Positions 42,362-59,623 of a stretch of DNA of 64,000 nucleotides are shown here, in pieces. Source of the DNA: a virus. The translations under genes and the position numbers were made by a program. The notes beneath the pieces were generated by a model. That model did not search any database. It had not been told where the DNA came from and was given only the letters and a program-made list of their open reading frames with translations. Location of the stretch: the IMG/VR virus record IMGVR_UViG_3300027844_001828, positions 1-64,000 of that record. One strand, given 5' to 3'. Position 1 is the first letter of the stretch. Each line of letters begins with the position of its first letter.

Positions 42362-44011
42362 ATGTCATTTAGAGAAATAGATATAGCTAAAATAAAGCAG
42401 CGTGAAAGATTGTTGCCAAATGAAGATGTGATGATTGAGGCTCAGAGAGAAGAAGTTCAATTGCTATCTATCGTCATGAGAAAAGGCGGTGATCAATACC
42501 TTCAGGATATGATGGATTGCACAGAAGTTGGAGTTGAGCATTTCTTGTTCGCTCCTAATGCAAGGATGTTCTCACTTGTTTGTAAGTGTTACATGAAGAA
42601 TAGATCGAGGCCAACAAGGATCTACATTGAAAAACAAGCCGAGTACTTCGACTCGCCTGCACAGGTTCGATCATTTTATGAAAAGATTGTTCGGTTAAAT
42701 GTAGAAGAAGATAATTATGAGCAGTTGAAAAGAGGGTTGGTCGCAAGATTCCTACAGCAGTCATTTTTTGAAATAACTATGGGCAAGACTCCAGATGAAG
42801 TCGGACTCATGCAAAGAATATTTGACGCCAAAGATGATCAAGATAAGTTGATTGACAAGATGAGGGACCAACTCTTAGGTCTTGAGGCTCCAAATGATTC
42901 CGAAGATAAATTCACAAAGACGGTTTTGGTTAAAGAGGAAATAGATGAGGTCTATGATGAAATCATGGATCGAAGAATGAATCCAGAGGCCCATCAAGGA
43001 ATGATGTGTGGAATCCCAGGATTTGACAACACCTTGAATGGTTGGAAGCCGGGGGAGTACTCGATTTTGGTTGGGCACCCTAACGGCGGTAAAACAACGA
43101 CCATGATAAACTTGGCTGTGGGAATGGCTGAACGAGGCGCGAGGGTGTGCTATGTTACGGTAGAGTCATCAAGTCAGCAGTTGATCGAGAGATTGATCTC
43201 AAGAGAGTCTAAGATTGATTCGGCGATTATCAAGAAGGGTGGACAGGGAGAAGATGAGATAAACCAAGAAAGAGCTAACAAGATATACCATGCAAAGGAA
43301 AAGATCAAAGAGATGCTTGGCGATACCTTGTGCTTTATCACTGTTCCTCAGAAGACTAAGATCACATCAATGCTTGCCCGTGTAGAAAAACAGCGTAGGT
43401 TTTCTGACTTCGATGTTCTATTTGTTGATTATCTTGATGTTATTGATTCCGTAGAGAGATATCCAGACAGAAAGGACTTGGAGATCGGTGACGTAAGTGT
43501 TAGACTTCAGTCTTATGGAAGAAGACATGGGTTGACCACCTTTACTGCACAGAGTTTCAATAATGAAATGATAAAGGCCATTAAGAAGTGCCAAGAGAAT
43601 GCGTCCGATGATGAAGAGTCTGATCTTGAAAACGTTGTTGGAATCGAAGGTGTTGGAGGAACTCAGAAGTTATCGAGAGACGCAGATTATATGTGGGGGA
43701 TAATACTGGGAAATCAAGGGTTGAAGCTCTCCATATTTTGGCTTAAATCAAGGAACACTGGAAAAGAAAGACCATTTATCTTAAACGCCTTTTTAGACTG
43801 TTGCCTCCTTGTTCAAAGAGAGAGCTTCCAGGCTGATGGAAACGGAACAGGTCCGATTCTTCCAAATGTAAGCGAAGAAGAAGTCGCTAAGGGTATTGAA
43901 GCAATAAGCTCGGACGAGGACGGGCCAGAAGAAATTAACAAGGGGAAAGACGGTTCGATTGCCGATGAGGTAAGCACAGGCAGTGGTTTCGCTATGAACC
44001 CAGAGGTATAG
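42362..44011 (+). CDS. dnaB-like: Replicative DNA helicase, DnaB-like
   Basis: 549 residues, RecA-type hexameric helicase. Walker A is GHPNGGKT at 238-245 with 'GIPGFDNTLNGWKPGEYSIL' before it. Walker B is 'VLFVDYLDVID' (D356). Then come 'TFTAQSFNN' and 'LSRDADYMWGIIL', the usual C-terminal pattern that ends in 'LKSRNTG'. The N-terminal 190 residues are helical, with the size of a DnaB primase-interacting domain. The C-terminus has an acidic tail ('SSDEDGPEE'). Expected to unwind the fork ahead of the polymerase, with the primase zinc domain encoded 2 bases downstream. Confidence 0.9.
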   Translation: MSFREIDIAKIKQRERLLPNEDVMIEAQREEVQLLSIVMRKGGDQYLQDMMDCTEVGVEHFLFAPNARMFSLVCKCYMKNRSRPTRIYIEKQAEYFDSPAQVRSFYEKIVRLNVEEDNYEQLKRGLVARFLQQSFFEITMGKTPDEVGLMQRIFDAKDDQDKLIDKMRDQLLGLEAPNDSEDKFTKTVLVKEEIDEVYDEIMDRRMNPEAHQGMMCGIPGFDNTLNGWKPGEYSILVGHPNGGKTTTMINLAVGMAERGARVCYVTVESSSQQLIERLISRESKIDSAIIKKGGQGEDEINQERANKIYHAKEKIKEMLGDTLCFITVPQKTKITSMLARVEKQRRFSDFDVLFVDYLDVIDSVERYPDRKDLEIGDVSVRLQSYGRRHGLTTFTAQSFNNEMIKAIKKCQENASDDEESDLENVVGIEGVGGTQKLSRDADYMWGIILGNQGLKLSIFWLKSRNTGKERPFILNAFLDCCLLVQRESFQADGNGTGPILPNVSEEEVAKGIEAISSDEDGPEEINKGKDGSIADEVSTGSGFAMNPEV

Positions 44012-44013
44012 TT

Positions 44014-44556
44014 ATGGCTGGTGGATTCAGAGGATTAGTTTATAATCAGGTGGATCTTAAGGACTTCTTGGAAACGACATGCGGTGTCCGATTGAGAAAG
44101 ACCGGGGACGACAGTTATAAAACTCTTTGCCCGTTCCCGTATCATAGGGACGGGAAGCCGTCATTTCAGGTAGATCTTAAGGAAGGTGGCTGGATGTGGT
44201 ATTGCTATGGCTGCTCTGAAGGCGGGACGATATTTGAATTCGTCCAAAAGTATTTCAGTCTCGATGCCGAGAATGCCGTCAAGTATATCACTGATAATTT
44301 TGAAATAAGAAGTGACGTTGAGGCTATCGTCTCGTCTATGGCTTTATCGGGATCTGACTCTAAGCGTAGGGTGGAGACTGAGACTCATCATGTTGTTTTG
44401 TGCAACGTCTGTTATGATTTATTAAAAAATAGATCTGGGGATAAAGAAGTTTTTTTAAAGGTCAAGAATATATTTTCCAGAGCGAATGAGGCGTTGTCCA
44501 CAATGGACGCTAATGAAATGTATGAAATCATGTCTGACGCATTGTCTATAGATTAA
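44014..44556 (+). CDS. Stand-alone primase zinc-binding (CHC2) protein
   Basis: 180 residues. C39-P-F-P-Y-H44, 'GKPSF', 'WYC64YGC67' and 'GGTIFEFVQ' match the N-terminal zinc-binding domain of DnaG primases (a little longer between first Cys and His). There is no TOPRIM or polymerase part, and the last 80 residues are helical. In DnaG this domain contacts template DNA and sets the primer start. Either another phage or host protein supplies the catalytic part, or this is a template reader for it. It follows the DnaB-like gene directly, as expected for a helicase-primase pair. Confidence 0.85.
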   Translation: MAGGFRGLVYNQVDLKDFLETTCGVRLRKTGDDSYKTLCPFPYHRDGKPSFQVDLKEGGWMWYCYGCSEGGTIFEFVQKYFSLDAENAVKYITDNFEIRSDVEAIVSSMALSGSDSKRRVETETHHVVLCNVCYDLLKNRSGDKEVFLKVKNIFSRANEALSTMDANEMYEIMSDALSID

Positions 44557-44558
44557 CG

Positions 44559-44567
44559 TGGTATAAT
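44559..44567 (+). promoter_or_regulatory. Possible extended -10 promoter just before the deaminase gene
   Basis: TGGTATAAT (TGn plus TATAAT) ends 9 bases before ATG 44576. No good -35 box at 16-18 bases is seen, but an extended -10 can do without one. Transcription would start about 44574, giving a nearly leaderless message. This gene has no clear ribosome binding site, which fits. Confidence 0.4.
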
Positions 44568-44575
44568 TTAGAATT

Positions 44576-45133
44576 ATGAGAAATGATTATAATAGTTGGC
44601 ACGAATGCTTTTTTGGATTCGCATATGAGGCGGCGGGACGATCAAAAGATCCGTCTACTCAATGCGGAGCTTGTATTGTTAGAAATAACAGGCCGAAGGG
44701 GATTGGATATAATGGCTTTATAAAAGGAGTCGAAGACACCCCGGAACGATGGGAAAAAGAAGAAAAGAAAAAGTACGTCTACCACGCTGAAAAGAATGCG
44801 ATAGCTAATAGTGAACTTAGAGACTTTGAAGATTGTCATTTGTATTTATGGTCTTCAAACCCGAATGTTTACCTTCCGTGCAAGGCATGCGCTGGAGATA
44901 TCGTACAGTTTGGAATAAGAAACGTACACGTATTGAAAAGACACAACGCAATTGAACCTGAAGATGACAAAAGATGGGACACTGGATTGACCTTATCTCT
45001 ATTTGAACATGGAGACGTAAGAGTTCATTCTCATTCCGCCGAAGAAGTACACCGTGCTTTGCTCACAAGAGCAACGAAAGATCTAAGCATGGAGAACATA
45101 GGTAATGAGTCAGGAACAGATAACAAGTGTTAA
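44576..45133 (+). CDS. dCMP/cytidine deaminase-like protein
   Basis: 185 residues. The zinc site is H70-A-E72 and P101-C102-x-x-C105, the signature of the cytidine/deoxycytidylate deaminase family, with 'CGACIVRNNRPKGIGYNGF' as the usual first strand pair. In phages these enzymes turn dCMP into dUMP for dTTP supply. A ComE-type family member without this role is possible. No clear ribosome binding site precedes the ATG. The sugar-kinase gene starts 29 bases before its stop, an unusual pair, so co-expression is likely. Confidence 0.85.
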   Translation: MRNDYNSWHECFFGFAYEAAGRSKDPSTQCGACIVRNNRPKGIGYNGFIKGVEDTPERWEKEEKKKYVYHAEKNAIANSELRDFEDCHLYLWSSNPNVYLPCKACAGDIVQFGIRNVHVLKRHNAIEPEDDKRWDTGLTLSLFEHGDVRVHSHSAEEVHRALLTRATKDLSMENIGNESGTDNKC

Positions 45134-46196
45134 TGCGATAGCACCAACGAGAATTTGCGATATTGGCGGGTGGACTGATACCTGGTTCGCAGGACACGGG
45201 TCAATTTTTAATATTGCAGTATATCCGTATGTGGATGTCCAGGTTTCCATATTGAGGGACGAAGAGAGCGCTGGGAAAATTTTTCTTTCTATGGAAAATT
45301 ACGACGATAAGTACCAGTTTGACTCAAGCAAAAAAATTGATGGCCCACTTGGGTCAAAGTTATTTTTACGAGAGGGTAAGGGGGGAGAATTCGGAAAATA
45401 CCCACTCGTAGAGAAGGCTGTTGAGATAATGGATACCCCTATGGATGTAGGGTATAGTATCAGCGTGTATTCTGACGCGCCACCTGGAGCGTCCATCGGA
45501 ACCTCCGCCGCCGTTTCTGTCGCCTTAATCGCGAGCCTTGACAGGCTATCTGACGGCCATTTAACCGCTCATGAAATAGCTCAGATGGCGCATTCAATAG
45601 AAACCAAGTACTTAAATTTGGAATGTGGCGTTCAGGATCAGTTGGCAAGTGCCTATGGTGGTATTAATTTCATTGATGTAAATAGATACCCATACTCAGT
45701 CGTCTCACCAGTTCCTATTAGCGATCAGATTTGGTGGGAATTAGAACAGAGACTGGCATTAGTTTATATTGGAATTCCACATGAATCGAGTGCGATCCAT
45801 AAGATTGTTATTGAAAGCCTTGGGAAAACCCCCTCACTTGACAATCGAATAGAGAAATTAAGGGTTCTTGCGAGAAGAGCTAAAAACGCTTTGATCGATG
45901 GTAATTTCGTCGAATTTGGCGATATTATGAATGAAAGCACAGCTGTTCAAAAAAGTATGCATCCAGAATTGGTGTGCTCTCAGTTTAGAGAGATCATCGA
46001 TATAGTTAAACATTATAAAGCCCTTGGATGTAAAGTAAATGGGGCTGGCGGGGATGGCGGGTCTTTAAGTATCTTGTTTGGAGAATGTAGAGAGGATAAA
46101 AGGAAGTGCCTGAAAGTTCTTGAAGAAAAGGGGTTTAACATTCTCCCCATATATCTCGCAAGAAGGGGGCTTAGGGTTTGGGAATCAAGAGGGTAG
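45105..46196 (+). CDS. GHMP-family sugar kinase, heptose-7-phosphate kinase-like
   Basis: 363 residues. 'ITSVNAIAPTRICDIGGWTDT' at the start and P126-P-G-A-S-I-G-T-S-A-A, the GHMP ATP-binding loop, are clear. 'KVNGAGGDGGSL' near 315 is the C-terminal motif. The N-terminal 'APTRICDIGGWTDT' and length fit the D-glycero-D-manno-heptose 7-phosphate kinase (HddA) and L-fucose kinase type rather than homoserine kinase. It would phosphorylate a sugar on the way to a nucleotide-sugar, perhaps for the glycosyltransferases at 31199-33396. The real substrate is unknown. Its gene overlaps the deaminase by 29 bp. Confidence 0.8.
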   Translation: MSQEQITSVNAIAPTRICDIGGWTDTWFAGHGSIFNIAVYPYVDVQVSILRDEESAGKIFLSMENYDDKYQFDSSKKIDGPLGSKLFLREGKGGEFGKYPLVEKAVEIMDTPMDVGYSISVYSDAPPGASIGTSAAVSVALIASLDRLSDGHLTAHEIAQMAHSIETKYLNLECGVQDQLASAYGGINFIDVNRYPYSVVSPVPISDQIWWELEQRLALVYIGIPHESSAIHKIVIESLGKTPSLDNRIEKLRVLARRAKNALIDGNFVEFGDIMNESTAVQKSMHPELVCSQFREIIDIVKHYKALGCKVNGAGGDGGSLSILFGECREDKRKCLKVLEEKGFNILPIYLARRGLRVWESRG

Positions 46197-46199
46197 GAC

Positions 46200-47090
46200 A
46201 TGAAATACATTCCGTCTGATGAGAATTTGGTAAAGTTTACAGACTTTGTCAATGAGGGGGGTTTCTATTTGAGAAACACGAGAGTTTGGAAAGGTAGATC
46301 TTCTTGTGTTATAAAACTCCCTGGTGTAGATGCCGATATAGAATTTAAGCCTCAAAGAGACTTCACTATTCATGATAGACTCATGATGACTCATATGAGA
46401 ATACATCGTTGGATGTATAGAACATTCACGGTCAAAACAGAATATGGATATTTCGTCCCCAATTGCAACCTTGATGAGTTTTCTTTGGTTAACGAAAGGT
46501 TCACAGAAAGATTCTACAATATTGTTGAGGAATCATCCACTATAAGACTTGATGAAATAAAAGCAAGCGTTGAAGGATCGTTTCATGAGATGATTAGATG
46601 GATATGGGCGAACAATCTTGGAAATGATGGAGACCCACCAGAGTCATTTGTAAATGAATATATCAAAAAACGAATAAAAAGCATAGAAACTCCAGAGTCG
46701 TTCAAAAACCAGTTTGAGTATTCGGTAACAAAAGTAAACCCGGAAAAATCCCCGGAGATTAGTGAAAAAGTAGCGAGAGAGGTGTATTCCAGGTGTATAA
46801 ACAAGAGGATGGCTTTCTATTTGTACTTGAGCAAGTCAAAAGAAAAGATCAGGGCCACAGGGAATGGGCCTTTAAAAAATCTTGTGAGATACACCCTACA
46901 TTGGAAAAAGGTACCATTCTATGGTGATGACGAGCTATTATTTTTTATAGATGAGATAAGACATTTGGTCATGAGAAACTTGGAAAGAGATCATGAAGAA
47001 ATATGCGCCAAGATAGATGTTTTAATGAACTATATAAAGACGTGTACAAAATACCCAATATACCTTGGAGACAAAAAGTATGGAGAATAG
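46200..47090 (+). CDS. Hypothetical protein, 296 aa
   Basis: Not recognised. A mixed alpha/beta protein with many aromatic and basic residues, with a helix-rich C-terminal half ('EICAKIDVLMNYIKTC'). Only 3 bases separate it from the kinase stop and its ATG follows GGGTAGG. It ends inside the next gene by 11 bases. It sits just before the Clp-like gene group, so a role in that group is possible, but there is no motif to support one. Confidence 0.6.
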   Translation: MKYIPSDENLVKFTDFVNEGGFYLRNTRVWKGRSSCVIKLPGVDADIEFKPQRDFTIHDRLMMTHMRIHRWMYRTFTVKTEYGYFVPNCNLDEFSLVNERFTERFYNIVEESSTIRLDEIKASVEGSFHEMIRWIWANNLGNDGDPPESFVNEYIKKRIKSIETPESFKNQFEYSVTKVNPEKSPEISEKVAREVYSRCINKRMAFYLYLSKSKEKIRATGNGPLKNLVRYTLHWKKVPFYGDDELLFFIDEIRHLVMRNLERDHEEICAKIDVLMNYIKTCTKYPIYLGDKKYGE

Positions 47091-47343
47091 ATTCGAAGGA
47101 ATAGAAGTGATAGATGATGGCCCGGATGTTTATTCCAGGAGTAAGGACGGTAGAATCATGTTTAGATTTAATAGAATAGACGGGACGTTTGCCCTGTTCA
47201 GATCTACAAGAATCAGCGATGCAGAAAAAGAGTTCACGTTGATAATGTTTGATAAGTTGAGCAATGATATGACCGAGACGAGTAGAGAAGATGTAAAATG
47301 TGCATTAGAGTATAAACTTGAAAAGGACCTATTTTGCACATGA
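47080..47343 (+). CDS. Hypothetical protein, 87 aa
   Basis: I choose ATG 47080 (with GGAGAC about 8 bases before) over the TTG at 47065. No motif found; acidic and basic residues are mixed, and there is a beta hairpin-like start followed by a helix. Its stop overlaps the ATG of the Clp-like gene (ATGA at 47340), which suggests coupled translation with it. Confidence 0.5.
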   Translation: MENRFEGIEVIDDGPDVYSRSKDGRIMFRFNRIDGTFALFRSTRISDAEKEFTLIMFDKLSNDMTETSREDVKCALEYKLEKDLFCT

Positions 47344-49535
47344 GTAATGCAGAGCATAAAAACATATTACCATTTAGCATTTTCAAAACCATCCTCATTG
47401 TAGAGAAGAGGGCTCTTGATGAAGGGATATCATTAGTGGACTCTTGTTTTTTCGCAAGCTGTATGATGAGTGCGAACAAGATGCATTTCCACCCCACCTT
47501 TGACGATAAAGAGATGGGCAAGTTCTGCGCCTTCATAGATGAAAACTGTCTTGTTAGATCGAAAAAGAAGACTTTTAATATAGATGACATCAAGTTCGCG
47601 AAACCAGTAATCGACTGTGTTGTGAAAGCGAAGGTCGAACCCAACAATGTTGATGCATGTCACGTCTTTTATCTTTTGATGAAATCAGATAGGAAGTTGA
47701 ATTCAATCGCTGCGCAACACAATATAACCACGAATAAGATTCTTGAGGTTGTAAATAGGATTGGCTCAAGTAAAATTGAGAATGATAAAAAGGTTACGGG
47801 TAAAAACAAGAAGCCCGCCAAGAGTGTCGCAAGTGGAAAAGAAGATTTGATTTTCAAATACTGCATAGATTTTAATGAGAAAGCAGCCAAGGGCGAATTG
47901 TCACCAGTGTTTTGTAGGGATGATGAAATTGAGAAGGTGATCGTCTCCTTGATGAAAAAGAACAAAGCTAATCCATTGTTGATTGGTGAGCCGGGAGTCG
48001 GTAAGACAGCCATTGTTGAGGGTATAGCGCAAAAGTTCGCTGCCGGGGATGTGCCTAAGAGATTCAAAGGGTATAAGATTCTTGGATTAAGTATGTCATC
48101 GATCATTCAAGGGACAACCTTGAGAGGGCAGTTTGAAGAACGCCTCGAAGCCATAATGAAAAAGATAATCGAAACTGGCAATATCATTTTGTTCATTGAT
48201 GAGATCCACACAATGGTGGGTGCGGGAAACGACTCTAATGGATTGGATGCGGGAAATATTATGAAGCCGTATCTTGCCAGAGGTGAATTTAGATGCATCG
48301 GAGCGACAACGTTTGACGATTATTATAAGTACATGAAAAAAGACAAGGCTCTTTCGAGAAGGTTCCAGAGAATTTTTGTTTCAGAACCCAGTAAAGAAGA
48401 GACGATTGAAATAATTAGGGGGTTAGCACCAGGTCTTGAGACCTATCACGGTTGCGTCATTGACTCATCGTCTTTTGAAAAATCTGTTGATTTATGCCAA
48501 AGATTTATCAATGACAGGTTTTTTCCAGACAAGGCTATAGATTGTCTTGATCACGCTTGTGCAAAGTCATCATTAGACTTGAGTGTTGTCGGAGACGATA
48601 TTATTGAGGAAGTTATTAGCGACTTCTGTGACATCCCCGTCTCTTTAATCAGAACGAAAGAGTCTGTGAGGCTTGAGAAGCTTGAGGGCGCTATTGGGAG
48701 TGAGATATTTGGAAATGAAAATAGTATCAAAGAATTTTGCAATAGAATAAGATTCGCTTGCTCAACGAGGAAGTCTTCGAGTGGGCCGTTATGTTCTTTT
48801 GTGTTTTATGGCCCTCCGGGGATTGGTAAAAAATCTATTATCGGGATAACAGCGAGGCATCTGTATGGTGATCAATCCGTAATAGTAATAAATGGATCGG
48901 AATACTCAGAGAGCAATGCGATAAATAGAATAATTGGCTCTCCGCCTGGATATATCGGTTACGATGAGGAAGGGTATATTTTAAGAGAGGTGAGACGCAA
49001 GCCCCATACGATGATTTTAATTAAGAAGCAAGATCTAATGCATGCTACAGTGAAAGAGCAGTTTAAGCAGATAATAGAGCGTGGTGTGGTAACTGATGTT
49101 CATGGGATGATAGCGGACTTCTCAAATTGCGTTATCGCCTTCTCGGTGGACACCAGCAACAAAAGTAGTTTGGGATTTACTCAGGGAGGGAACAGCGTCA
49201 GTGGCGATGCGGAATGCGAGACAATAAAAAAGAATTGCCCATTATTATCCCGCGTGTCTCACCACATATCTTTCAACGACACACCATCCGAGTACGTGTC
49301 GAGTCTCGTATCAGTCGAAATGGAAAAATTCCATGACGAGTTGAAATTCAGCGAAATCCGTGTACATTATGATTCTAAGTGTATCAAGTATTTCGAATCC
49401 TTGAAGGGCTCTCCTTCATCTATTCGATCCGAAGTAAGAAACAAGCTCGAATACGAATTATGTAATGGGCTATCCTCAGACAATCGAGAGTACTGGTTTG
49501 AAGTAGTCGATGATGAAATAACAGTTAGGAGGTAA
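47340..49535 (+). CDS. ClpA-like double AAA+ protein with degenerate second ATPase
   Basis: 732 residues from ATG 47340 (not the TTG at 47334), with an ATGA overlap with the previous stop. An N-terminal region is followed by a complete first AAA+ domain: Walker A G216EPGVGKT, Walker B 'FIDEIHT' (D287-E288), and 'KALSRRFQRI' as the arginine-finger region. The second domain keeps Walker A G491PPGIGKKS but has 'MILIKKQDL' (K562-K563) where Clp proteins have DE, so it should not hydrolyse ATP. Where ClpA has its ClpP-docking loop (IGL), there is L611-G-F. This suggests an unfoldase working with a host or phage ClpP, or a regulator. No ClpP gene is in the window. Confidence 0.8.
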   Translation: MSNAEHKNILPFSIFKTILIVEKRALDEGISLVDSCFFASCMMSANKMHFHPTFDDKEMGKFCAFIDENCLVRSKKKTFNIDDIKFAKPVIDCVVKAKVEPNNVDACHVFYLLMKSDRKLNSIAAQHNITTNKILEVVNRIGSSKIENDKKVTGKNKKPAKSVASGKEDLIFKYCIDFNEKAAKGELSPVFCRDDEIEKVIVSLMKKNKANPLLIGEPGVGKTAIVEGIAQKFAAGDVPKRFKGYKILGLSMSSIIQGTTLRGQFEERLEAIMKKIIETGNIILFIDEIHTMVGAGNDSNGLDAGNIMKPYLARGEFRCIGATTFDDYYKYMKKDKALSRRFQRIFVSEPSKEETIEIIRGLAPGLETYHGCVIDSSSFEKSVDLCQRFINDRFFPDKAIDCLDHACAKSSLDLSVVGDDIIEEVISDFCDIPVSLIRTKESVRLEKLEGAIGSEIFGNENSIKEFCNRIRFACSTRKSSSGPLCSFVFYGPPGIGKKSIIGITARHLYGDQSVIVINGSEYSESNAINRIIGSPPGYIGYDEEGYILREVRRKPHTMILIKKQDLMHATVKEQFKQIIERGVVTDVHGMIADFSNCVIAFSVDTSNKSSLGFTQGGNSVSGDAECETIKKNCPLLSRVSHHISFNDTPSEYVSSLVSVEMEKFHDELKFSEIRVHYDSKCIKYFESLKGSPSSIRSEVRNKLEYELCNGLSSDNREYWFEVVDDEITVRR

Positions 49536-49537
49536 TC

Positions 49538-50029
49538 TTGAACGCTAACAAGTTCACGCTCGGTAAGATCATCTTGGATTGTGACACAACAGTTCACGCT
49601 TTGTTAAGGGATGACCAGAGGGGTGTATTCACGCCGATGTATTTGGATTACGAATGCTCAAGGTCCCTTGTTGAATTAAATGAAAATAATTACGCCCGCG
49701 AAATGAAAATGACTGTAGACTTTTTGATCCAGTCATGGCGGAGTATGGGTTTTTCAATCGAGAGTCTTTTTCTTGACAATCCAAACGGGGGAGCAGACGA
49801 CGTTCCAGTTCCAGTTATCGTATTGGCCCAGAATAATGGTGATCAGGTGATGATGAAGATTTCCTCGTTTGCACCCATCAATGTCGCTTTAACAATTGTT
49901 CAGTTAACTGGAATAAATATTTATATTACTGATAGAATAGAGAAAAATCTTCATATTTTAGATATTTCAGTGTATGATAAGTATATACAAGAAACATCTT
50001 TGACAGATGAAATAGAAGAGGAAGACTAA
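49538..50029 (+). CDS. Hypothetical protein, 163 aa, TTG start
   Basis: The TTG at 49538 is chosen because TAGGAGGT ends 4 bases before it, a near-perfect site, and no ATG fits this well. The 163-residue product starts with a beta-rich part ('TLGKIILDCDTTVHALL') and later has 'PVIVLAQNNGDQVMMKI' followed by a helix. The C-terminus is acidic. No family recognised. It follows the Clp-like gene by 2 bases and its stop overlaps the next start (TAATG), so these genes are probably one operon. Confidence 0.6.
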   Translation: MNANKFTLGKIILDCDTTVHALLRDDQRGVFTPMYLDYECSRSLVELNENNYAREMKMTVDFLIQSWRSMGFSIESLFLDNPNGGADDVPVPVIVLAQNNGDQVMMKISSFAPINVALTIVQLTGINIYITDRIEKNLHILDISVYDKYIQETSLTDEIEEED

Positions 50030-50313
50030 TGGATAGGACGATTGTCAATGAAGGAGAATACATAGAGGTCGAATGTGAAAATATTTCCGGTGATATCGAG
50101 AAACTTGAGGAAGCGGAAATAATTGTTCTTACAAATATGAGAATAGAATTGGCTGACAAAGACAAGTCAGATTTTCTAAGAGTTTTTAAGAAGTGGTATG
50201 AATTTTTTATAGAGACTTCACCATACTTTAACCAGCTTGATGAGACCCAACGTTCAGACGCCACAATAAGGAAGATGTTGACCCATGTGCCTAATTTCAA
50301 TAAAGCTGACTAA
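50029..50313 (+). CDS. Hypothetical protein, 94 aa
   Basis: Starts at ATG 50029 overlapping the previous stop. An acidic N-terminal half is followed by helices ('DFLRVFKKWYEFFIET', then 'DATIRKML'). No motif or membrane segment. Likely translationally coupled to its upstream neighbour. The function is unknown. Confidence 0.5.
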   Translation: MDRTIVNEGEYIEVECENISGDIEKLEEAEIIVLTNMRIELADKDKSDFLRVFKKWYEFFIETSPYFNQLDETQRSDATIRKMLTHVPNFNKAD

Positions 50314-50530
50314 GAAGGCCTCGGAAGGCCCGGAGCCGCAATTCTTTTATAGTCTCAAAGAGAGATTCAAAGACTTTTTTAGTAAATGTGACGTTGTATC
50401 ATACGAGAAGGTTAATGATAGGTTCTTATTGAGAGTTTATGTGCATTGGCCGGAGAACGCGGTTTCAATATTTATCAATGGTGCCTTATTGCGGGTAAGA
50501 GGCGTTGAAAAAGCATCAATTATATCATAG
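50285..50530 (+). CDS. Hypothetical protein, 81 aa
   Basis: ATG 50285 lies 29 bases inside the previous gene. The product is a small mixed protein ('YSLKERFKDFFSKC' and 'LLRVYVHWPENAVSIFINGALL', perhaps a beta-rich half). No motif recognised and no clear ribosome binding site, so it may be coupled to the gene before, or start slightly elsewhere. Coding potential is moderate. Confidence 0.45.
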   Translation: MCLISIKLTKKASEGPEPQFFYSLKERFKDFFSKCDVVSYEKVNDRFLLRVYVHWPENAVSIFINGALLRVRGVEKASIIS

Positions 50531-50540
50531 GAGTATGGAA

Positions 50541-51224
50541 ATGGAAGATCAAATAACGGTTGAAGAACTTGAGAAGCAACTGTCAGAAATTGACAAAAAA
50601 GCGATGAGTATAGAAATTTTCCAATGGCTAATTGACAACGCCGAACATTACATTGACACAATGACCGAAGATTTCTCGTTAAGCTTTTTAGCTAATGATG
50701 AGATTATGCCAGAGACTGTGAAAGTTGAAAAGCTATGCAATGATCTTGAGACTATGGAGATCGAAGTGACCGGGGCGGAAGATCAGTTGGAAGACGTTAT
50801 CAATGATAACCCAGATATTGAGGAAGCGGCAAGAAAGCAGACAGCATTGAACGAGTTTATGGAAGAGGTTAGGGTTTTTATGGATGAAGACCTGGAGTAT
50901 AAAGGGAAAATCCTTGACAAGTTCATGTATTTCCACGACTTTGTTGGATATCGACCAGTTGAAAAAGAAGACGGTACAATAAAAGCCGAAGAGATTATAA
51001 AAGATATGACCGGCTCAGTAGAAATATCATATCTGTCTTTTGAGAACATGAGCATGGACGTATCAAGAATAGCCCACGACCCAGTTTATGACGATGATGG
51101 TAATATTGTCAGTTATGAAAAAGATGAGGCTAAGAGAGAGATCGTCGGAAAGATTCCGCCGTCATTTTGTATAGACATGTCAGTTAGCGTATGGGAGAAC
51201 CATGGATCAGCCTCAATATTCTAA
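50541..51224 (+). CDS. Acidic hypothetical protein, 227 aa
   Basis: ATG 50541 follows TAGGAG by 7 bases; the earlier ATG 50535 is too close to that site, and a TTG at 50505 is unlikely. The product is strongly acidic, with a helical first half ('VEKLCNDLETMEIEVTGAEDQLEDV') that could form a coiled coil, and then 'YEKDEAKREIVGKIPP'. No known domain. It is followed, with a 23-base overlap, by a Nudix-like gene. Confidence 0.55.
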   Translation: MEDQITVEELEKQLSEIDKKAMSIEIFQWLIDNAEHYIDTMTEDFSLSFLANDEIMPETVKVEKLCNDLETMEIEVTGAEDQLEDVINDNPDIEEAARKQTALNEFMEEVRVFMDEDLEYKGKILDKFMYFHDFVGYRPVEKEDGTIKAEEIIKDMTGSVEISYLSFENMSMDVSRIAHDPVYDDDGNIVSYEKDEAKREIVGKIPPSFCIDMSVSVWENHGSASIF

Positions 51225-51648
51225 AATAATAATTCCTGTCCCAGTTAGTGTATCCATTGTGGTGATCAGTGACGCACGTGTGTTGGTAAAAAAACATGAC
51301 ATTGGATTTCACTTCCCATTTGATTATTTTACACACTCTGAAAGTGCTACCACACAAGATTGCGCCGCAAAATTATTATCAGAGATTACCGATGTTGTAC
51401 ATGACGGAGAAAATTGGCTTCCAGTTGATATTAGAAGTTTCGGGGTGCGGAAAAATATCGACAATAATCATAGCTTAGACATTGGCTACATGACAATGTT
51501 AAATACGCTTGACATCCCACTTGTAGATGAAGATGAGTATGAGTGGAAGATAGTAGATTTTGATAAAAAGACGTTCCCGGTTGATCTCTTAACCGATCAC
51601 GAGTCGTTATGGCAAGCCGCTTGGAATATGTTTGATATAATGAAATAG
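51202..51648 (+). CDS. Protein resembling a Nudix fold, box degenerate, 148 aa
   Basis: The order of elements (first strand 'VSIVVISDARVLVKK', then 'FHFPFDYF', a helix 'TTQDCAAKLLSEITDV', then 'SLDIGYMTML' and a closing strand-helix) follows a Nudix fold. The Nudix box itself lacks the REUxEE residues, since only one Glu of that helix remains, so a pyrophosphohydrolase activity is doubtful. It could bind a nucleotide without cutting it, or be unrelated. It is the last gene of the P1 unit; P2 follows after the stop. Confidence 0.4.
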   Translation: MDQPQYSKIIIPVPVSVSIVVISDARVLVKKHDIGFHFPFDYFTHSESATTQDCAAKLLSEITDVVHDGENWLPVDIRSFGVRKNIDNNHSLDIGYMTMLNTLDIPLVDEDEYEWKIVDFDKKTFPVDLLTDHESLWQAAWNMFDIMK

Positions 51649-51652
51649 CGGC

Positions 51653-51680
51653 TTGCAATCCACCGTATTAACGGTATATT
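51653..51680 (+). promoter_or_regulatory. Promoter P2 (TTGCAA-N16-TATATT)
   Basis: TTGCAA at 51653-51658, spacer of 16, TATATT at 51675-51680, starting 5 bases after the stop of the gene before. The spacer contains the inverted repeat ACCGT-ATTA-ACGGT (51662-51675), which could be an operator. The 10-base leader CGGAGAACAC at 51694-51703 is identical to that of P3 and holds the ribosome binding site of GTG 51706. Confidence 0.75.
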
Positions 51681-51705
51681 GACAGTAATTTAACGGAGAA
51701 CACCT

Positions 51706-52782
51706 GTGAAGAAAATTCTATTTATTGACGGTATGAATTTGGCCTGGAAGGCTATCCATGCTTATAATCTCTCGACCTCAAGCGGACAAGATACGTCCGC
51801 TATTTTTGGTTTTATAAACCAGCTTATATCAGTAATAAACGGTAGAAAAGACTTGTTGATTGTTGTAGCGTGGGACGGTGGTTATGAAGAGAGGACCAGG
51901 CTCTCAAACGCGGGTATTGAAAAGGGCATTATCAATGCTGCGTATAAGTCTAATCGAAAATCAGACGATAAGACTCAAGACACCAAGATCAACTTAGACC
52001 CTCAGCTTAAAGAGATCCAACGCGCACTTAGCCACACTGACATAAAACAAATATTTGTAGCTGGCGAAGAGGCCGATGATGTTATCGCTTCATGCGCCAA
52101 AAAGATCGGTGGCAAGGCGGAGATACTCTGCTTAACCTGCGACCATGATTATTATCAATTATTGAGTGACAATTTTTCAATTTTGGATAGGATGCATGGC
52201 ACAGAGAATTTAATCACGAACAAAACATTCACCGAAGACAAGGGTATAGAGCCTTGTCAGTGGGTTGATTCTGGAGCGTTAAGCGGAGACACGAGTGATT
52301 GCATTATGGGGGTTCCCGGATGTGGAGAACCAACTGCTATAAAGCTCATCAAAGCACATGGAGATGTTGAGAGTGTCATTAGTCATTTTGAATCTGAATT
52401 GTCTATAGAAAGGGGTAAGTATCCAGATTTACAAACTCAGGATGAAGTAAATGAGTTGATCTCTCTTGGTGGGACTAAGAAAGTAAAGGGAAATAGTCAA
52501 AAGCCAAATTATGAGGGTATTTATGTTGGGATGCCCTTCAGCGGAGTTTGCTTGGCGAACTTGAGGGGTGACTTGAAAAAGGTAAAGAAGATTGATATAA
52601 AGGTCGTCATGTACCAAGAGAGAATCCGTCTTGCAAAGCAGTTGAAAAAGATGAGGTCAGATATAGACGTTCCAAACATAACGTTTGAATCGTCTTTTAA
52701 TGAAAGAGAGTTTTGCAGAATTTGTGGGGAATATGAGTTGTATTCTATAACCATGAAAGCTGAGGTTTTTAAGTTCTTATGA
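51706..52782 (+). CDS. 5'-3' exonuclease / flap endonuclease-like, GTG start
   Basis: 358 residues with the FEN/PIN nuclease pattern: D8 in 'LFIDGMNLAW', D57, 'GEEADD' at 120-125, 'CDHD' at 145-148, and 'GDTSD' at 194-198 followed by the helix-hairpin-helix 'GVPGCGEPTAIKLI'. These acidic residues bind two metal ions in T4 RNase H and the polymerase I exonuclease domain. The likely job is to remove RNA primers and flaps. The GTG at 51706 has GGAG 7 bases before it and lies 25 bases after the P2 -10 box. The extra C-terminal part holds 'FCRICGEYE', with one CxxC. Confidence 0.85.
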   Translation: MKKILFIDGMNLAWKAIHAYNLSTSSGQDTSAIFGFINQLISVINGRKDLLIVVAWDGGYEERTRLSNAGIEKGIINAAYKSNRKSDDKTQDTKINLDPQLKEIQRALSHTDIKQIFVAGEEADDVIASCAKKIGGKAEILCLTCDHDYYQLLSDNFSILDRMHGTENLITNKTFTEDKGIEPCQWVDSGALSGDTSDCIMGVPGCGEPTAIKLIKAHGDVESVISHFESELSIERGKYPDLQTQDEVNELISLGGTKKVKGNSQKPNYEGIYVGMPFSGVCLANLRGDLKKVKKIDIKVVMYQERIRLAKQLKKMRSDIDVPNITFESSFNEREFCRICGEYELYSITMKAEVFKFL

Positions 52783-53042
52783 AACGAAGATACGATATGA
52801 GAAGGTCTGATAACTTTCCTCATTGTTCGACAGTAGAGAAATTTCTTGAGGGGGAATCCGGTAAGGTTTTTATCCATACCGGATTTCCCGTAAAGAGCGC
52901 AATAGTGGTTCCCACATCTATACCAGAAGGGTCTGAATTGTTTGCTGACCCGGAGTTCGATGAAGAGGAAGGTTTCAATGTAATCTTTAACAAAATGCCA
53001 GGTGATCAGAACTTGGTAAAATTCAGCTATCAGGCAACATAA
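52779..53042 (+). CDS. Hypothetical protein, 87 aa
   Basis: Starts at an ATGA overlapping the exonuclease stop. A basic start followed by a beta-type segment and an acidic stretch ('FADPEFDEEEGF'). No family recognised. Its place between the exonuclease and topoisomerase genes (a 2-base gap follows it) makes a replication-linked role likely but unproven. Confidence 0.5.
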   Translation: MKRRYDMRRSDNFPHCSTVEKFLEGESGKVFIHTGFPVKSAIVVPTSIPEGSELFADPEFDEEEGFNVIFNKMPGDQNLVKFSYQAT

Positions 53043-53044
53043 AT

Positions 53045-54700
53045 ATGAAATTAGTAATATTAGAGTCTCCGAATAAGATATCCACCATTAAAAAGTATCT
53101 ACCTGATGACTTTGAGGTCTTGGCCTCAGTTGGTCATATCATGGAGATACCGGCAGATTCGATGAATATCAACATAGCAGATGGGACATTCGCTCCCGTT
53201 ATCAGACCGATACCAGGAAAAGAAGATACAATAAAGTTGATTCAGTTTAAGGCCAAGCAAGCCGATGAAGTGTTTATCTGTACTGACCCTGACCGTGAGG
53301 GAGAAAGAATAGCTCTAGATATCTATGAAATATTGGAAGATAAAAGCAAAGTTAAGCGAGCGGCTTTCCACGAGATCACAAAGAAAGCCGTGGCGAAGGC
53401 CATTAATGAGGCTGGAGATATTGATTTTAATAGAGCATACAGTCAAATGGCTCGTCAAATTATAGATCGAGTATTGGGGTACACAGTAAGTCCAATGGTA
53501 TGGAAGAGCATCGTTGGTGGAAAAAGCGCCGGGAGAGTCCAGTCTGTCGCCCTTGGGTTGATCGCAGAAAGAGAGGCGGAGATTGATTCTTTTGTAAGAG
53601 ACTTATTCTGGGATATCACTGTGGGTATGAAGATTGGAGGGGAAAATGTTTTCGGAGTTGTTTCAACAAACAATAAGGGGAATAGAATATACAAACAGGC
53701 CGACGCCGAGAGAGCAAAGGAGATCATTGAGAAAAGTGAGCTTAAGGTTTCAAACGTTAGCAAAAGTATCAAGGCAAGAAAGGCCCAGGCACCATTTGAC
53801 ACTGCTTCATTGCAGAAGTTGGCCTCTACAAATTTTGGGTGGTCAGGAAAAAAGACGATGGATGTTGCTCAGAAATTGTATGAAAAGGGAATGTGTACAT
53901 ATCATAGGACCGACAGTTTCAGCGTATCAACGGAGGCTCAAGAAGTCTGTTCAGGATATATAAAGACCGAACATGGAGACGATTACGTCCCAAAGACTCC
54001 AAATGTTTATAAGAAGAAAGGGCAAACATCTCAGGAGGCCCATGAGTGTATAAGGCCAACATCTGTAAGGGGAGACTCGTGGATTAATGAACCCTTAGAG
54101 AAAGATGAGCAGAGGCTTATAGATATGATCACGAACAGGTTTGTTGCCTCGCAAATGTCTGACTTGAGGGTAAAAAGCACCGTTATCACTATTCCATGCA
54201 AGCCGTGTAAGATTATTGTAGAGGGGAAGTCGATTGAGTTTGATGGCTGGTCAAAGGTTTGGCAAATAAGCGGAAAGGAAGTATTCCTTCCGAATATCGA
54301 AGAGAATGACACCCTCGATCTCAATGGAGTGGTTATTAAGGATCATGAGACCCGTCCACCGGAAAGGTACAACACGGGTACTTTAGTGTCAAAGATGGAG
54401 AAGCACGGGGTTGGAAGGCCCTCAACATGGGCGCAGATAATTGAAAACATCGTTGGGCGAGGATATGTTGAAAATGACGGGAAGAGGTTCGCTCTCACCA
54501 GTATAGGGAAGGATGTTTATACTTTCTTGGTGAATAAATTTAGAGAATCTTTCATGGACTTGGGATACACTTCTACAGTAGAAGCCGAGTTAGACAAAAT
54601 ATGTAAAGACCCGTCAATTAGAGTGGAAGTGATTTCTAACTTTTACGATAATATTAACAGGGCAATCAAAAAAAGTCGGCGCGTATCCCTTGGAATATAG
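53045..54700 (+). CDS. topA-like: DNA topoisomerase I (type IA)
   Basis: 551 residues. The TOPRIM part has E7 ('VILESPNK') and D81-P-D83-R-E-G-E-R. 'QIIDRVLGYTVSP' and 'SAGRVQSVAL' are standard. The catalytic Tyr is Y286 in 'GMCTYHRTDS'. 'GVGRPSTWA' closes the core. It ends soon after the core, so the C-terminal zinc domains of E. coli TopA are absent. It relaxes negative supercoils behind the fork or transcription complex. Most likely full length, since the stop is followed by a normal spacing to the next gene. Confidence 0.9.
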   Translation: MKLVILESPNKISTIKKYLPDDFEVLASVGHIMEIPADSMNINIADGTFAPVIRPIPGKEDTIKLIQFKAKQADEVFICTDPDREGERIALDIYEILEDKSKVKRAAFHEITKKAVAKAINEAGDIDFNRAYSQMARQIIDRVLGYTVSPMVWKSIVGGKSAGRVQSVALGLIAEREAEIDSFVRDLFWDITVGMKIGGENVFGVVSTNNKGNRIYKQADAERAKEIIEKSELKVSNVSKSIKARKAQAPFDTASLQKLASTNFGWSGKKTMDVAQKLYEKGMCTYHRTDSFSVSTEAQEVCSGYIKTEHGDDYVPKTPNVYKKKGQTSQEAHECIRPTSVRGDSWINEPLEKDEQRLIDMITNRFVASQMSDLRVKSTVITIPCKPCKIIVEGKSIEFDGWSKVWQISGKEVFLPNIEENDTLDLNGVVIKDHETRPPERYNTGTLVSKMEKHGVGRPSTWAQIIENIVGRGYVENDGKRFALTSIGKDVYTFLVNKFRESFMDLGYTSTVEAELDKICKDPSIRVEVISNFYDNINRAIKKSRRVSLGI

Positions 54701-54711
54701 GGTAATTTTTT

Positions 54712-55503
54712 ATGATAATTTCTGGGTTTTCAGGTATCGGTGTGATTATAAGAGGAGGGATGTCTCAATCGCCATTTAGATTTCTTAGCGCCGACATAAA
54801 TCTAAGTCAAAACATTAATATCTATCTACCATCATACGGTGGGGAAAATCTTAGAAGAATAATTTCTCCAAATATTGGAACAATATCGGGGAGGGTGTCT
54901 TTGATACCAACCGCCTCTTCAAGCGCAATGTTTTATAATATCGTCAAGGACTTCGAGCCGGTAGATGTCAAGCTGTATTATTATTCTGGCCGAAATAGAT
55001 CCTTCACCACTTGTTTCTTAGACAACCTGACGTTTTCTTGTAAGGCCGGTGAAATGGTCAATTTAAGTTTTGATGTGGTTTGTGAGGGTGAGGACTTTGA
55101 GTCCAATTCAAAAAGATACACTGTCGCTGAAAAACTTGTAACCTGGGACAAGACTGGAATTACTGGGTTCCCATTGAGCGCCACTGAGGATCTGAATAGT
55201 TTTACCTACTCTGTAAAGAACAACCTGGTTCTCATTAGAACAGCGGAAGGTCTGCTTCCAAGAAAGTACGGTAAAGGAATACAGGAGGTCAGTGGTAATT
55301 TGACTTATTTCTCATCTATAGATTCTTTGAGAGAGCCGTCTCGACTGAATAAATATAAGATTCAAGTTTCCAATGCAGTAACCTTTTATGTTGACGACTT
55401 CTCTGTTACCCATAAGATCGCGAACCATTGGACATACAAGACACCATTGAGTCCTGGGATCGTCATCACGACCCTTGACTGGACCCGCGTTGACGACATA
55501 TAA
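54712..55503 (+). CDS. Putative tail-tube-like structural protein
   Basis: 263 residues, beta-rich, in what looks like two similar halves: 'NINIYLPSYGGENLRRI' with 'GTISGRVSLIP', and later 'NNLVLIRTAEGLLPRKYGKG' with 'EVSGNLTYFSS'. This pattern is seen in tail tube proteins with a doubled fold, but I cannot confirm it. The ATG at 54712 is about 10 bases after a weak GGG site; ATG 54760 is preceded by AGGAGG but the distance is too short. It is odd to find a virion-type gene behind topA and just before P3. Confidence 0.45.
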   Translation: MIISGFSGIGVIIRGGMSQSPFRFLSADINLSQNINIYLPSYGGENLRRIISPNIGTISGRVSLIPTASSSAMFYNIVKDFEPVDVKLYYYSGRNRSFTTCFLDNLTFSCKAGEMVNLSFDVVCEGEDFESNSKRYTVAEKLVTWDKTGITGFPLSATEDLNSFTYSVKNNLVLIRTAEGLLPRKYGKGIQEVSGNLTYFSSIDSLREPSRLNKYKIQVSNAVTFYVDDFSVTHKIANHWTYKTPLSPGIVITTLDWTRVDDI

Positions 55504-55517
55504 TTGTTGTCAGCAGC

Positions 55518-55545
55518 TTGCAATTTATTCGTATCACGGTATAAT
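55518..55545 (+). promoter_or_regulatory. Promoter P3 (TTGCAA-N16-TATAAT)
   Basis: TTGCAA at 55518-55523, spacer of 16, consensus TATAAT at 55540-55545. GCTTGCAA is shared with P1 and P2. The leader CGGAGAACAC (55585-55594) is identical to that of P2. It drives the clamp loader, sigma and clamp group. The leader from about 55552 to ATG 55596 has no strong hairpin. Confidence 0.8.
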
Positions 55546-55595
55546 ATACAATCGGGAAGCTATGTCGATGTTAATTATTATAATCGGAGAACACG

Positions 55596-56690
55596 ATGCC
55601 AGAGATCTTTTATCAAAAATACAGGCCTAAATACATTGGTCACCTAATAGGTCAAGAAATCGTTTCCAAAATACTCACGAGAGCCTGTGAGAAAGAGTTT
55701 TTCCACCATTCGTACTTGTTATCTGGAAAACACGGCACCGGAAAGACCACAGTAGCCCGAATTATCGCATCTATGCTTGTTTGTGAGTCAAGGAAGACCG
55801 GAAGTGATGTCACATGTGGAAAATGCCCCGGCTGCAATGCGGTACATAAGAATGCGTCTCCAGACGTTCAGGAAATCGATGCGGCGTCGAATAGCAGCGT
55901 TGACAATATTAGATCCGTGATCGAAAGTAGCCGCCACTCTCCACAGGACTTGAAAAAGAGAGTGTTCATTATTGATGAATGTCATAGGCTCAGTCCAGCC
56001 GCTATGTCAGCTTTGTTGAAAACATTGGAAGAACCATCTTCCTCTTCGGTGTTCATATTGTGTACAACAGAGTTCGATAAGGTTTTGTCAACTATTAAAG
56101 GCCGGTGTCAAAAGTTGTTTTTCAATCCGGTACCACCCAAGAAAATGATTCCGTATTTAGGTGGTTTGTTTAAGTCAAGGGATGTTAAGATTGACACACC
56201 AGCGTTATTCAGTATCGCATCAGCCAGTGGCGGAAGTGTCCGAGAAGCGCTTGAGATTTCCCAAGAAGTTATTGTGTTAGCGGATGGCGAAGTGACTGAA
56301 GCAATGATTGCTGAGAATTACGGGATAGCAAACCGCCAGGATCTTTACACCTTAGTTGGTGCCACATTGTCGGACGACTTAATAAAAACTTTTGACACCT
56401 TAGAGCGACTTTTCGCATCAAATATTGATGTACGAAAGGTTTGCAGAGAAATTGGAGATATTTTTAGGAGTATAATGTTATCGAAAGTTGATTCAAAATA
56501 TATTAATGGATTGGTTGACTCAGAAAAAGAGTTCATTAGTAAGACGGGGTCAACAGTAAACATTTCGGATTTAGCGTCATTCTTGCCCTTTTTCGAAGAG
56601 GCGGAAAGATGTTTCGAAGTAAACGTAAACAACAAATGGGTATTAGAAGCCATAATTGTTAAGATAACTCAAAAGATAAACGGAAAATAA
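55596..56690 (+). CDS. dnaX-like: DNA polymerase III gamma-like clamp-loader ATPase
   Basis: 364 residues. Starts 'FYQKYRPKYIGHLIGQE', the DnaX opening. Walker A G44KHGTGKT51, zinc module C63, C74, C77, C80, and DECH at 127-130. 'LLKTLEEPSSSSVFILCTTE' is typical, with 'KGRCQ' where bacterial proteins have SRC. It stops where gamma ends, so it has no tau extension for binding helicase and polymerase. It would load the clamp encoded at 57460 with the delta-like subunit at 58638. No delta-prime gene is found in the window. Confidence 0.9.
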   Translation: MPEIFYQKYRPKYIGHLIGQEIVSKILTRACEKEFFHHSYLLSGKHGTGKTTVARIIASMLVCESRKTGSDVTCGKCPGCNAVHKNASPDVQEIDAASNSSVDNIRSVIESSRHSPQDLKKRVFIIDECHRLSPAAMSALLKTLEEPSSSSVFILCTTEFDKVLSTIKGRCQKLFFNPVPPKKMIPYLGGLFKSRDVKIDTPALFSIASASGGSVREALEISQEVIVLADGEVTEAMIAENYGIANRQDLYTLVGATLSDDLIKTFDTLERLFASNIDVRKVCREIGDIFRSIMLSKVDSKYINGLVDSEKEFISKTGSTVNISDLASFLPFFEEAERCFEVNVNNKWVLEAIIVKITQKINGK

Positions 56691-56709
56691 TTCAGATAGT
56701 ACGCTTCCT

Positions 56710-56732
56710 TCCCTGCTCATGCAAGGGGAATA
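56710..56732 (+). promoter_or_regulatory. Hairpin that could cover the sigma gene ribosome binding site
   Basis: TTCCC-TGC-TCAT-GCA-AG-GGGAA, a stem with a two-base bulge, whose right arm contains the AAGGGGAA that precedes GTG 56737 by about 6 bases. A folded form would hide the site and limit sigma translation. Structure predicted by eye only. Confidence 0.35.
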
Positions 56733-56736
56733 ACAA

Positions 56737-57444
56737 GTGGAAAAAGACACGAAGAAGAGACCAAAGAACAAAGCGAAAACCAAGGAACAGGTAGAAAAAT
56801 TAAATAACTATGCTCTTAGTTTGCAGATGAACATCGATAACGATGAGGCTTTTGAAGCAATCCATGCAGCATTGCATAACTTTATAATAAGCCAGGCTTT
56901 TCATAGGTTTATTATCAAGGGGCAAGAAGGTAAAGACTTGTATCAAGAATCGTTAATTGTCTTGTGGCAAAAGGCGATTCCTAAATTCAATCCAGATAAG
57001 GGAATGAGTTTTCTTGGGTTTGCTAAGATGTGTATAAATAGGCACCTGATCACAATATTGAATAGCGCCTTAAATCGAAAGAAAGACATTCCTATGAATA
57101 GGTCAGTTTCTCTCGATGAAGTATTTGGCGGTAAAGATGGAGATGAAGAGGGATGCTCCCTATATAACATGTTAGCTGATGAAGACACTGATTTTGTTAG
57201 AGATTTATGCTCGAATCAAGATCGACATGAGACGGTTAAAAAATTGAAAGCGGAGTTAAGTCCATTTGAATCTATGGTACTTTACCACTATCTTGATCAC
57301 CTATCATACAAAGAAATTGCCGAGTCTGTGTCAAACACTCTTGGCACACGATATAATGAAAAGTCAGTAGACAACGCTTTGCTTAGAATAAGGAGAAAAG
57401 CATCCGACCTGATGTCGGAAGTTCAGCTGGCCCTTTTTGAATAG
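56737..57444 (+). CDS. Sigma-70 family factor, SigH-like, with C-terminal clamp motif
   Basis: 235 residues, GTG start. Region 2 is at about 65-115: 'DLYQESLIVLWQKAIPKFNPDKGMSF' and 'FAKMCINRHLITILNSALNRKK', then 'NRSVSLDE', as in SigH of Bacillus. Region 4 at 172-221 has 'LSPFESMVLYHYLDHLSYKEIAES' and 'KSVDNALLRIRRK', again SigH style. The last residues are Q230-L-A-L-F-E, which match the beta-clamp binding motif QL[S/D]LF. It should bind host RNA polymerase, probably for late genes. Its gene is flanked by clamp-loader and clamp genes, so activation by the clamp is likely (inference). Confidence 0.85.
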   Translation: MEKDTKKRPKNKAKTKEQVEKLNNYALSLQMNIDNDEAFEAIHAALHNFIISQAFHRFIIKGQEGKDLYQESLIVLWQKAIPKFNPDKGMSFLGFAKMCINRHLITILNSALNRKKDIPMNRSVSLDEVFGGKDGDEEGCSLYNMLADEDTDFVRDLCSNQDRHETVKKLKAELSPFESMVLYHYLDHLSYKEIAESVSNTLGTRYNEKSVDNALLRIRRKASDLMSEVQLALFE

Positions 57445-57459
57445 AACAAGGAGTAGACA

Positions 57460-58635: not shown

Positions 58636-58637
58636 TA

Positions 58638-59621: not shown

Positions 59622-59623
59622 AT

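Follow-up and report, generated by a model that had tools for sequence, protein, structure and literature searches.

A phage ClpA-type protein with a degenerate second AAA+ ring and a retained ClpP-docking-like loop

In ClpA, the second AAA+ ring (D2) is described as the principal motor and the first (D1) as an auxiliary or back-up motor, and the KYR pore aromatic is called invariant across AAA+ unfoldases (PMC9663308). D1 is reported still to hydrolyze ATP in a ClpA variant without D2 hydrolysis (Kress 2009, as described in PMC5540906), and the IGL/IGF loops of the unfoldase are reported to dock in ClpP clefts (PMC7707817). Pex1/Pex6 is described as having one ring that no longer works as an ATPase but still has its Walker A Lys; aromatic pore loops are present in the active ring and are missing from the inactive one (D1) (PMC9265785). 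Phage ClpA and ClpP have been discussed, with suggested roles in virion assembly, translocation, degradation, and host takeover (PMC7824862, PMC6102473), and ClpA is named among the core genes of a phage group (PMC12619734). The literature searched, mostly at abstract level, yielded no report of a Clp protein combining a naturally dead D2 with a kept docking loop.

The ClpA proteins of jumbo phages (PHROG 4871; RaK2, 121Q, GAP32, CBB, PA5oct, Atu_ph07, and others) share a two-AAA+ architecture, D1 motifs, and a similar loop column, and commonly occur with a phage ClpP. All 13 compared here carry D2 GKT/S, DE, sensor-1 Asn, Arg, and GAR, as well as an aromatic D1 pore loop. The protein described here is encoded in a window of 64,000 nucleotides (positions 1 to 64,000 of IMGVR_UViG_3300027844_001828, a virus record of 235,624 bases). 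By sequence and alignment its D1 ATPase motifs are intact and its D2 is a pseudo-ATPase (Table 1); unlike the jumbo-phage proteins, it and one distant relative have Leu at the D1 pore aromatic position.

Table 1. The ClpA-type gene, its motifs, and the two genes upstream, in window coordinates
Feature	Coordinates	Strand	Basis
Protein of ~300 aa (296 aa) without known family, cassette gene 1	46200..47090	+	Homologues upstream of ClpA in L033, L112
Small conserved protein (87 aa, ATG start; C-terminal DLFCT)	47080..47343	+	Same place in L033, L032/L112
ClpA-type double-AAA+ protein, 731 aa	47340..49535	+	ATG start, stop-free translation, profiles, structure match
D1 Walker A GEPGVGKT (aa 216-223)	47985..48008	+	Sequence and alignment
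D1 pore-1 loop GTTLRG (aa 258-263), TLR for usual KYR	48111..48128	+	Alignment column
D1 Walker B LFIDE (aa 284-288; ILFIDE 283-288)	48189..48203	+	Sequence and alignment
D2 Walker A GPPGIGKK (aa 491-498), Lys for Thr/Ser	48810..48833	+	Column counts, codons
D2 pore-1 loop GSPPGYIGY (aa 533-541)	48936..48962	+	Conserved column residues
D2 Walker B position, K562-K563 for Asp-Glu (reads ILIKK)	49023..49028	+	Column counts, codons AAG AAG
D2 sensor-1 position, D604 for Asn	49149..49151	+	Asn in 229/229 others; Asp in L033
ClpP-docking-like tripeptide L611-G612-F613	49170..49178	+	Column with I/V/L/M-G-F in most viral homologues

Family placement and relatives

The ClpA-like identity proposed in a sequence-only reading of the window is borne out, as profiles, the two AAA+ domains, and the fold match to ClpA in ClpAP agree. 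The protein matches PHROG 4871 "ATP-dependent protease" (E 1.9e-141), TIGR02639 ClpA (E 6.2e-144; its 480.9 bits do not reach the curated NCBIfam cut-off of 993 bits), and the Pfam families AAA, AAA_lid_9, and AAA_2. Its AF2 model (47 sequences) has a mean pLDDT of 86.5 and a pTM of 0.69. The best VIA match of the model is ClpA in ClpAP (6w20_A: Z 36.5, rmsd 5.5, 537 aligned, over residues 171-731), D2 alone (residues 441-731) matches ClpB NBD2 (4lj7_A: Z 26.7, rmsd 2.9, 287 aligned), and D1 is 50-52% identical to ClpB NBD1 structures. The architecture is that of a ClpA/ClpC-type Hsp100, with two tandem AAA+ domains of the ClpA/B/C fold. The long middle domain of ClpB is absent, PDB alignments skipping Hsp104 chain residues 404-527 with the query continuous. 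Of the two functional ATPase sites of this protein type, that in D2 appears from the sequence to be missing. No Pfam match to a two-repeat Clp_N domain was obtained at residues 1-145; some whole-chain ClpC/Hsp104 matches begin at residues 1-12, with rmsd above 14. PADLOC gave only AAA+ cross-matches (best E 4.8e-22, PDC-M37B).

The comparison set comprised the 13 phage relatives, 80 IMG/VR loci, further IMG/VR loci, and 80 bacterial loci, and exact duplicates of proteins already in the alignment were removed beforehand. The 151 viral or phage rows, in which near-identical sequences are not independent, include the window protein, its distant relative L033 (IMGVR_UViG_3300038679_000357), and L270 (IMGVR_UViG_3300026549_001598), a viral single-AAA+ protein that resembles a stand-alone ClpA D2 and carries DE and an IGF motif. 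L033 is 33% identical to the window protein and lies in a syntenic locus with the same cassette, within a shared replication region (primase, 5' nuclease at 41% identity, clamp loader, and others). In the D1 tree, a quick run on 76 of 207 distinct D1 sequences, the two proteins pair with an SH-aLRT of 93, and L032 (IMGVR_UViG_3300025150_000028) joins them as sister at 95. L032 has the same upstream cassette and an SLGF loop, but differs from the pair in its intact D2 Walker A and B, sensor 1, and Arg finger and in the KYR of its D1 pore; it is the closest intact relative.

No third protein of the degenerate lineage turned up in scans with the small cassette protein, A2, and A5, and no viral relatives were found with the window protein alone or the helicase alone as query. 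In the nuclease scan the L033 contig was the only one with ClpA in the stretch examined, and the matches from the genome scan with A5 have an intact D2.

Residues lost and kept in the two rings

The sequence-only reading had noted Lys-Lys in place of the Walker B Asp-Glu of D2, and codons and alignment confirm it. Asp-Glu is found in all 229 other homologues (149 viral or phage, 80 bacterial), and L033 has Thr-Asn. The dead second ATPase proposed on this basis is supported at the sequence level, and the decay is wider than was seen then, extending to Walker A, sensor 1, and sensor 2. At the Walker A Thr column, 227 of the 229 homologues have Thr and the other two Ser, whereas the window protein and L033 both have Lys; the sensor-2 GAR is missing from both. 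The Arg-finger position holds Arg in the window protein and Glu in L033. Conservation across the 229 homologues reaches 98% or more at 29 positions of D2 and 33 of D1; both proteins have lost 14 of the former and one of the latter.

A reading error at 49023-49029, which had been named as a way of restoring Asp-Glu, is rejected. The Lys-Lys codons (AAG AAG) differ from Asp-Glu codons at three or more bases, and Walker A carries a further change (Gly-Lys-Lys as GGT AAA AAA), so that such an error is not credible; the independent L033 contig has the same loss, at the same positions. Chance, or a decay common among D2 domains, is rejected as well, Asp-Glu being present in 149 of the 151 viral or phage D2s and in 80 of 80 bacterial ones. 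Since the same D2 losses recur in a distant relative, D2 looks like a conserved pseudo-ATPase, a settled design shared by the two proteins, and not an error. In L032 the sensor-2 GAR is already altered although the Walker motifs are intact, which suggests that the catalytic set was lost stepwise.

In D1, Walker A and B had been read as intact, and GEPGVGKT and ILFIDE are indeed present. Both the window protein and L033 retain the Walker motifs, sensor 1, and the arginines of D1, and the intact ATPase motifs point to a machine that uses ATP. The pore-1 aromatic column is aromatic in 218 of the 229 homologues, Leu in three (L152, L160, L165), and a gap in eight; the corresponding triplet is TLR in the window protein, NLR in L033, and KYR in L032. 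The pore Leu is thus not unique to the pair. The viral ClpA-like proteins L152, L160, and L165 have a D1 pore loop that reads GTNLRG but carry Asp-Glu in D2; L152 and L160 form a separate clade in the D1 tree, which does not include L165. Loss of the D1 aromatic weakens the case for translocation by D1 alone. It leaves one ring with ATPase motifs and without the pore aromatic, and another that keeps the aromatic without ATPase motifs.

The D2 pore-1 residues G533, G537, Y538, and G540 are shared by all 229 homologues and by L033, which keeps PGYIGY. P536, the P-loop glycines, and Lys497 are also the same in the window protein and L033. The placement of LGF at the IGL/IGF site by the sequence-only reading holds, as residues 611-613 fall in the I/V/L/M-G-F alignment column. 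L033 shares the Gly and Phe (MGF), and both proteins thus have a hydrophobic-Gly-hydrophobic tripeptide in the loop that follows sensor 1 of D2. Loop counts refer to alignment columns; a regular-expression motif count was dropped, as it also catches a stretch beside sensor 1. In the AF2 model the LGF loop is unstructured and residues 608-611 have pLDDT < 50, which fits a loop that is exposed and flexible, exposure here being read from pLDDT and secondary structure only and not from residue-level burial.

Eight of nine catalytic D2 positions are lost in both proteins, as against none of seven chain- or ClpP-contact positions (one-sided Fisher p = 0.0007, for hand-chosen positions tested post hoc in two proteins that amount to one lineage). 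Retention of [LM]GF in this one pair, amid decayed catalytic residues, is suggestive of a docking loop.

ClpP genes, upstream cassette, and genomic neighborhood

The genome of the window phage encodes a 184-aa ClpP-family protein (gene at about G000:C1:161395-161949; PF00574 match at G000:C1:161512-161940, E 3.5e-30), with Ser, His, and Asp at the aligned triad positions. It lacks the N-terminal axial stretch and has Lys and Val for the two cleft tyrosines of canonical ClpP, at what we take to be their positions from E. coli numbering. Its best identities among phage records are to Phosso (45.6%) and BUCT-ZZ01 (47.9%), the latter without a ClpA match. The gene adjoins those of NAD synthase and an Fe-S assembly-type protein, and no head genes were recognized by eye in the 16 kb around it. 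Some of its PHROG matches are head maturation proteases (best E 2e-27), and a capsid role is therefore possible from the sequence.

In the same part of the genome (~154-161 kb; L016 5293-7227 and 83-1252), the NAD synthase (Pfam, C-terminal part) lies near a nicotinate phosphoribosyltransferase-like ORF (by eye). The two may serve NAD+ salvage, a possible lead for counter-defense against NAD-depleting systems.

ClpA is accompanied by ClpP in 11 of the 13 phage records, several of them close kin; these are not independent, because GAP32, XbC2, and CBB are all Mimasvirus. A ClpP survey covered 18 records, two of them Phosso and BUCT-ZZ01 and the other 16 IMG/VR records with ClpA. ClpP was found in 11 of the 16, and the L033 record (255 kb) is among the five in which none was found, with the qualification that ClpA-bearing records may be fragments. 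The sequence-only reading had proposed an unfoldase that redirects host ClpP. The ClpA type, the dead D2, and the docking-like loop stand, and the host is one candidate source of the partner: the window phage has a ClpP gene of its own, so that redirection of host ClpP is not the sole reading. The docking partner may be phage ClpP or host ClpP. The phage ClpP without axial stretch and cleft tyrosines, and the L033 record without ClpP, leave host ClpP possible; the same observations count against the D1-driven unfoldase with a docking D2 proposed below.

The order of the upstream cassette is conserved, with a protein of ~300 aa, one of ~70-90 aa (~85), and then ClpA. In the window and in L033 there is a 4-nt overlap between the small gene and the start of ClpA; in L032/L112 the two genes are ~10 nt apart. 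The C-terminus of the small protein reads DLFCT in the window, DIYCA in L033, and EFCS in L032/L112. An FC/YC ending upstream of ClpA was found only in the L032 and L033 contigs among 158 ClpA loci examined, which include repeats of the same contigs (ORFs of at least 55 codons, within 250 nt). Neither the ~300-aa nor the small protein has a Pfam or PHROG match. The AF2 model of the small protein (pLDDT 83.9) matched nothing at E ≤ 0.001 in PDB or BFVD. Both cassette proteins may be adaptors; ClpS was found neither in the window phage nor in the distant relative's genome.

The locus lies in a bacterial-type replication island (window 42362-60280) with a DnaB-like helicase and, by Pfam, topoisomerase I, a DnaX-type clamp loader, a beta-type sliding clamp, and RuvC; a zinc primase and a 5' nuclease were read by eye, and the island is syntenic with L113. 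A deaminase and a GHMP kinase (Pfam) occupy window 44576-46196, between the primase and the ClpA cassette, and are replaced in L033 (1790-2809) by a sugar-nucleotide epimerase-like gene (by eye). Elsewhere in the window, a 1183-aa ORF (12239-15790) has, close to the C-terminus, an unusual low-complexity tract rich in Ser and Cys. J-domain genes occur in the window phage (G000:C1:86748-86936) and in the distant relative (G001:C1:46724-46921).

A D1-driven machine and competing explanations

We consider it about evenly balanced whether the protein is a weak, D1-driven unfoldase in which D2 is a passive gripping and ClpP-docking collar. The labor of the two rings would then be redistributed in a hexameric phage ClpA-type unfoldase. 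D1 would be the sole motor. D2 would be a non-hydrolyzing collar, nucleotide-bound or empty, lining the exit channel, with its tyrosines holding the chain and LGF docking on the ClpP ring. As D2 is the principal motor in ClpA, a D2-dead machine should do poorly with stable substrates. Such an unfoldase would be weak and slow, and would act on substrates that are loosely folded, tagged, or brought by an adaptor; the 87-aa and ~300-aa cassette proteins may be what delivers them. A strict split of labor, in which D1 burns ATP without an aromatic grip and D2 grips and docks without hydrolysis, is offered more tentatively, and D1 force would have to pass through the protomer to the D2 pore loops.

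The window protein shares with E. coli ClpA, as seen in ClpAP, the D1 and D2 fold and the place of the IGL loop, but the ring described there as the principal ATPase motor (PMC9663308) has here lost its catalytic residues. With Pex1/Pex6 (PMC9265785) it shares the retirement of one ring and the kept Walker A Lys; the arrangement of pore loops is reversed, the dead ring keeping its tyrosine and the live ring having lost its aromatic.

A ClpP-independent role in remodeling the phage replisome is doubtful and yet deserves weight. Here the ring, driven by D1, would work with its cassette partners to loosen complexes or take them apart, as ClpA does with RepA, and LGF would be a relic or bind something else. 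The gene sits inside the replication island, the L033 gene is placed likewise in a record where no ClpP was found, and a weak D1 motor would suit remodeling better than robust degradation. However, location is weak evidence alone, ClpA adjoining tail genes in the RaK2-like phages read. The window phage carries a ClpP-family gene, and [LM]GF survives although the remainder of its loop has diverged, as has the D2 small domain (8 of 61 residues identical between the window protein and L033).

The sequence-only reading had also raised a decoy. It is improbable that the protein blocks Clp proteolysis in the host, whether by filling the clefts of host ClpP or by joining host ClpA/ClpC in mixed assemblies through D1. 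A conserved docking-like loop beside a dead motor would fit, as would the identity of D1 to ClpB NBD1 structures, and a dead D2 would be expected to stall a mixed hexamer. A pure decoy, however, would have no need of the D1 Walker motifs, sensor 1, and arginines kept in both proteins, and the D2 pore tyrosine is also retained.

Still less probable is a chaperone or disaggregase that works with phage DnaJ and no protease. Both genomes have a J-domain protein, and DnaJ adjoins ClpA in L112 (by eye), PA5oct, and Atu_ph07; against this, HSP70 was found in neither genome, and the alignments jump from Hsp104 residue 403 to 528, leaving no ClpB-type middle domain. The window protein also keeps the ClpP loop, which ClpB is not known to have.

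That D2 is a functionless domain on its way to loss is very unlikely, for despite the divergent small domain and the sensor 2 already altered in L032, the D2 large domain is 67/190 identical between the window protein and L033, the pore and docking loops are kept, both frames are open, and the fold is confident.

The D1-driven machine with a gripping collar would represent a natural D2-dead ClpA variant kept by evolution, with pore tyrosine and docking loop retained. The lineage could reveal what D1 does alone, whether a passive ring grips and docks, and by what means a phage adjusts or circumvents Clp proteolysis. For annotation it is a warning that phage ClpA and ClpP genes should not be labeled as ordinary host-like proteases. 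Split labor, if true, would provide a natural test of ring coupling in ClpA-type machines, together with a phage-specific two-gene adaptor cassette.
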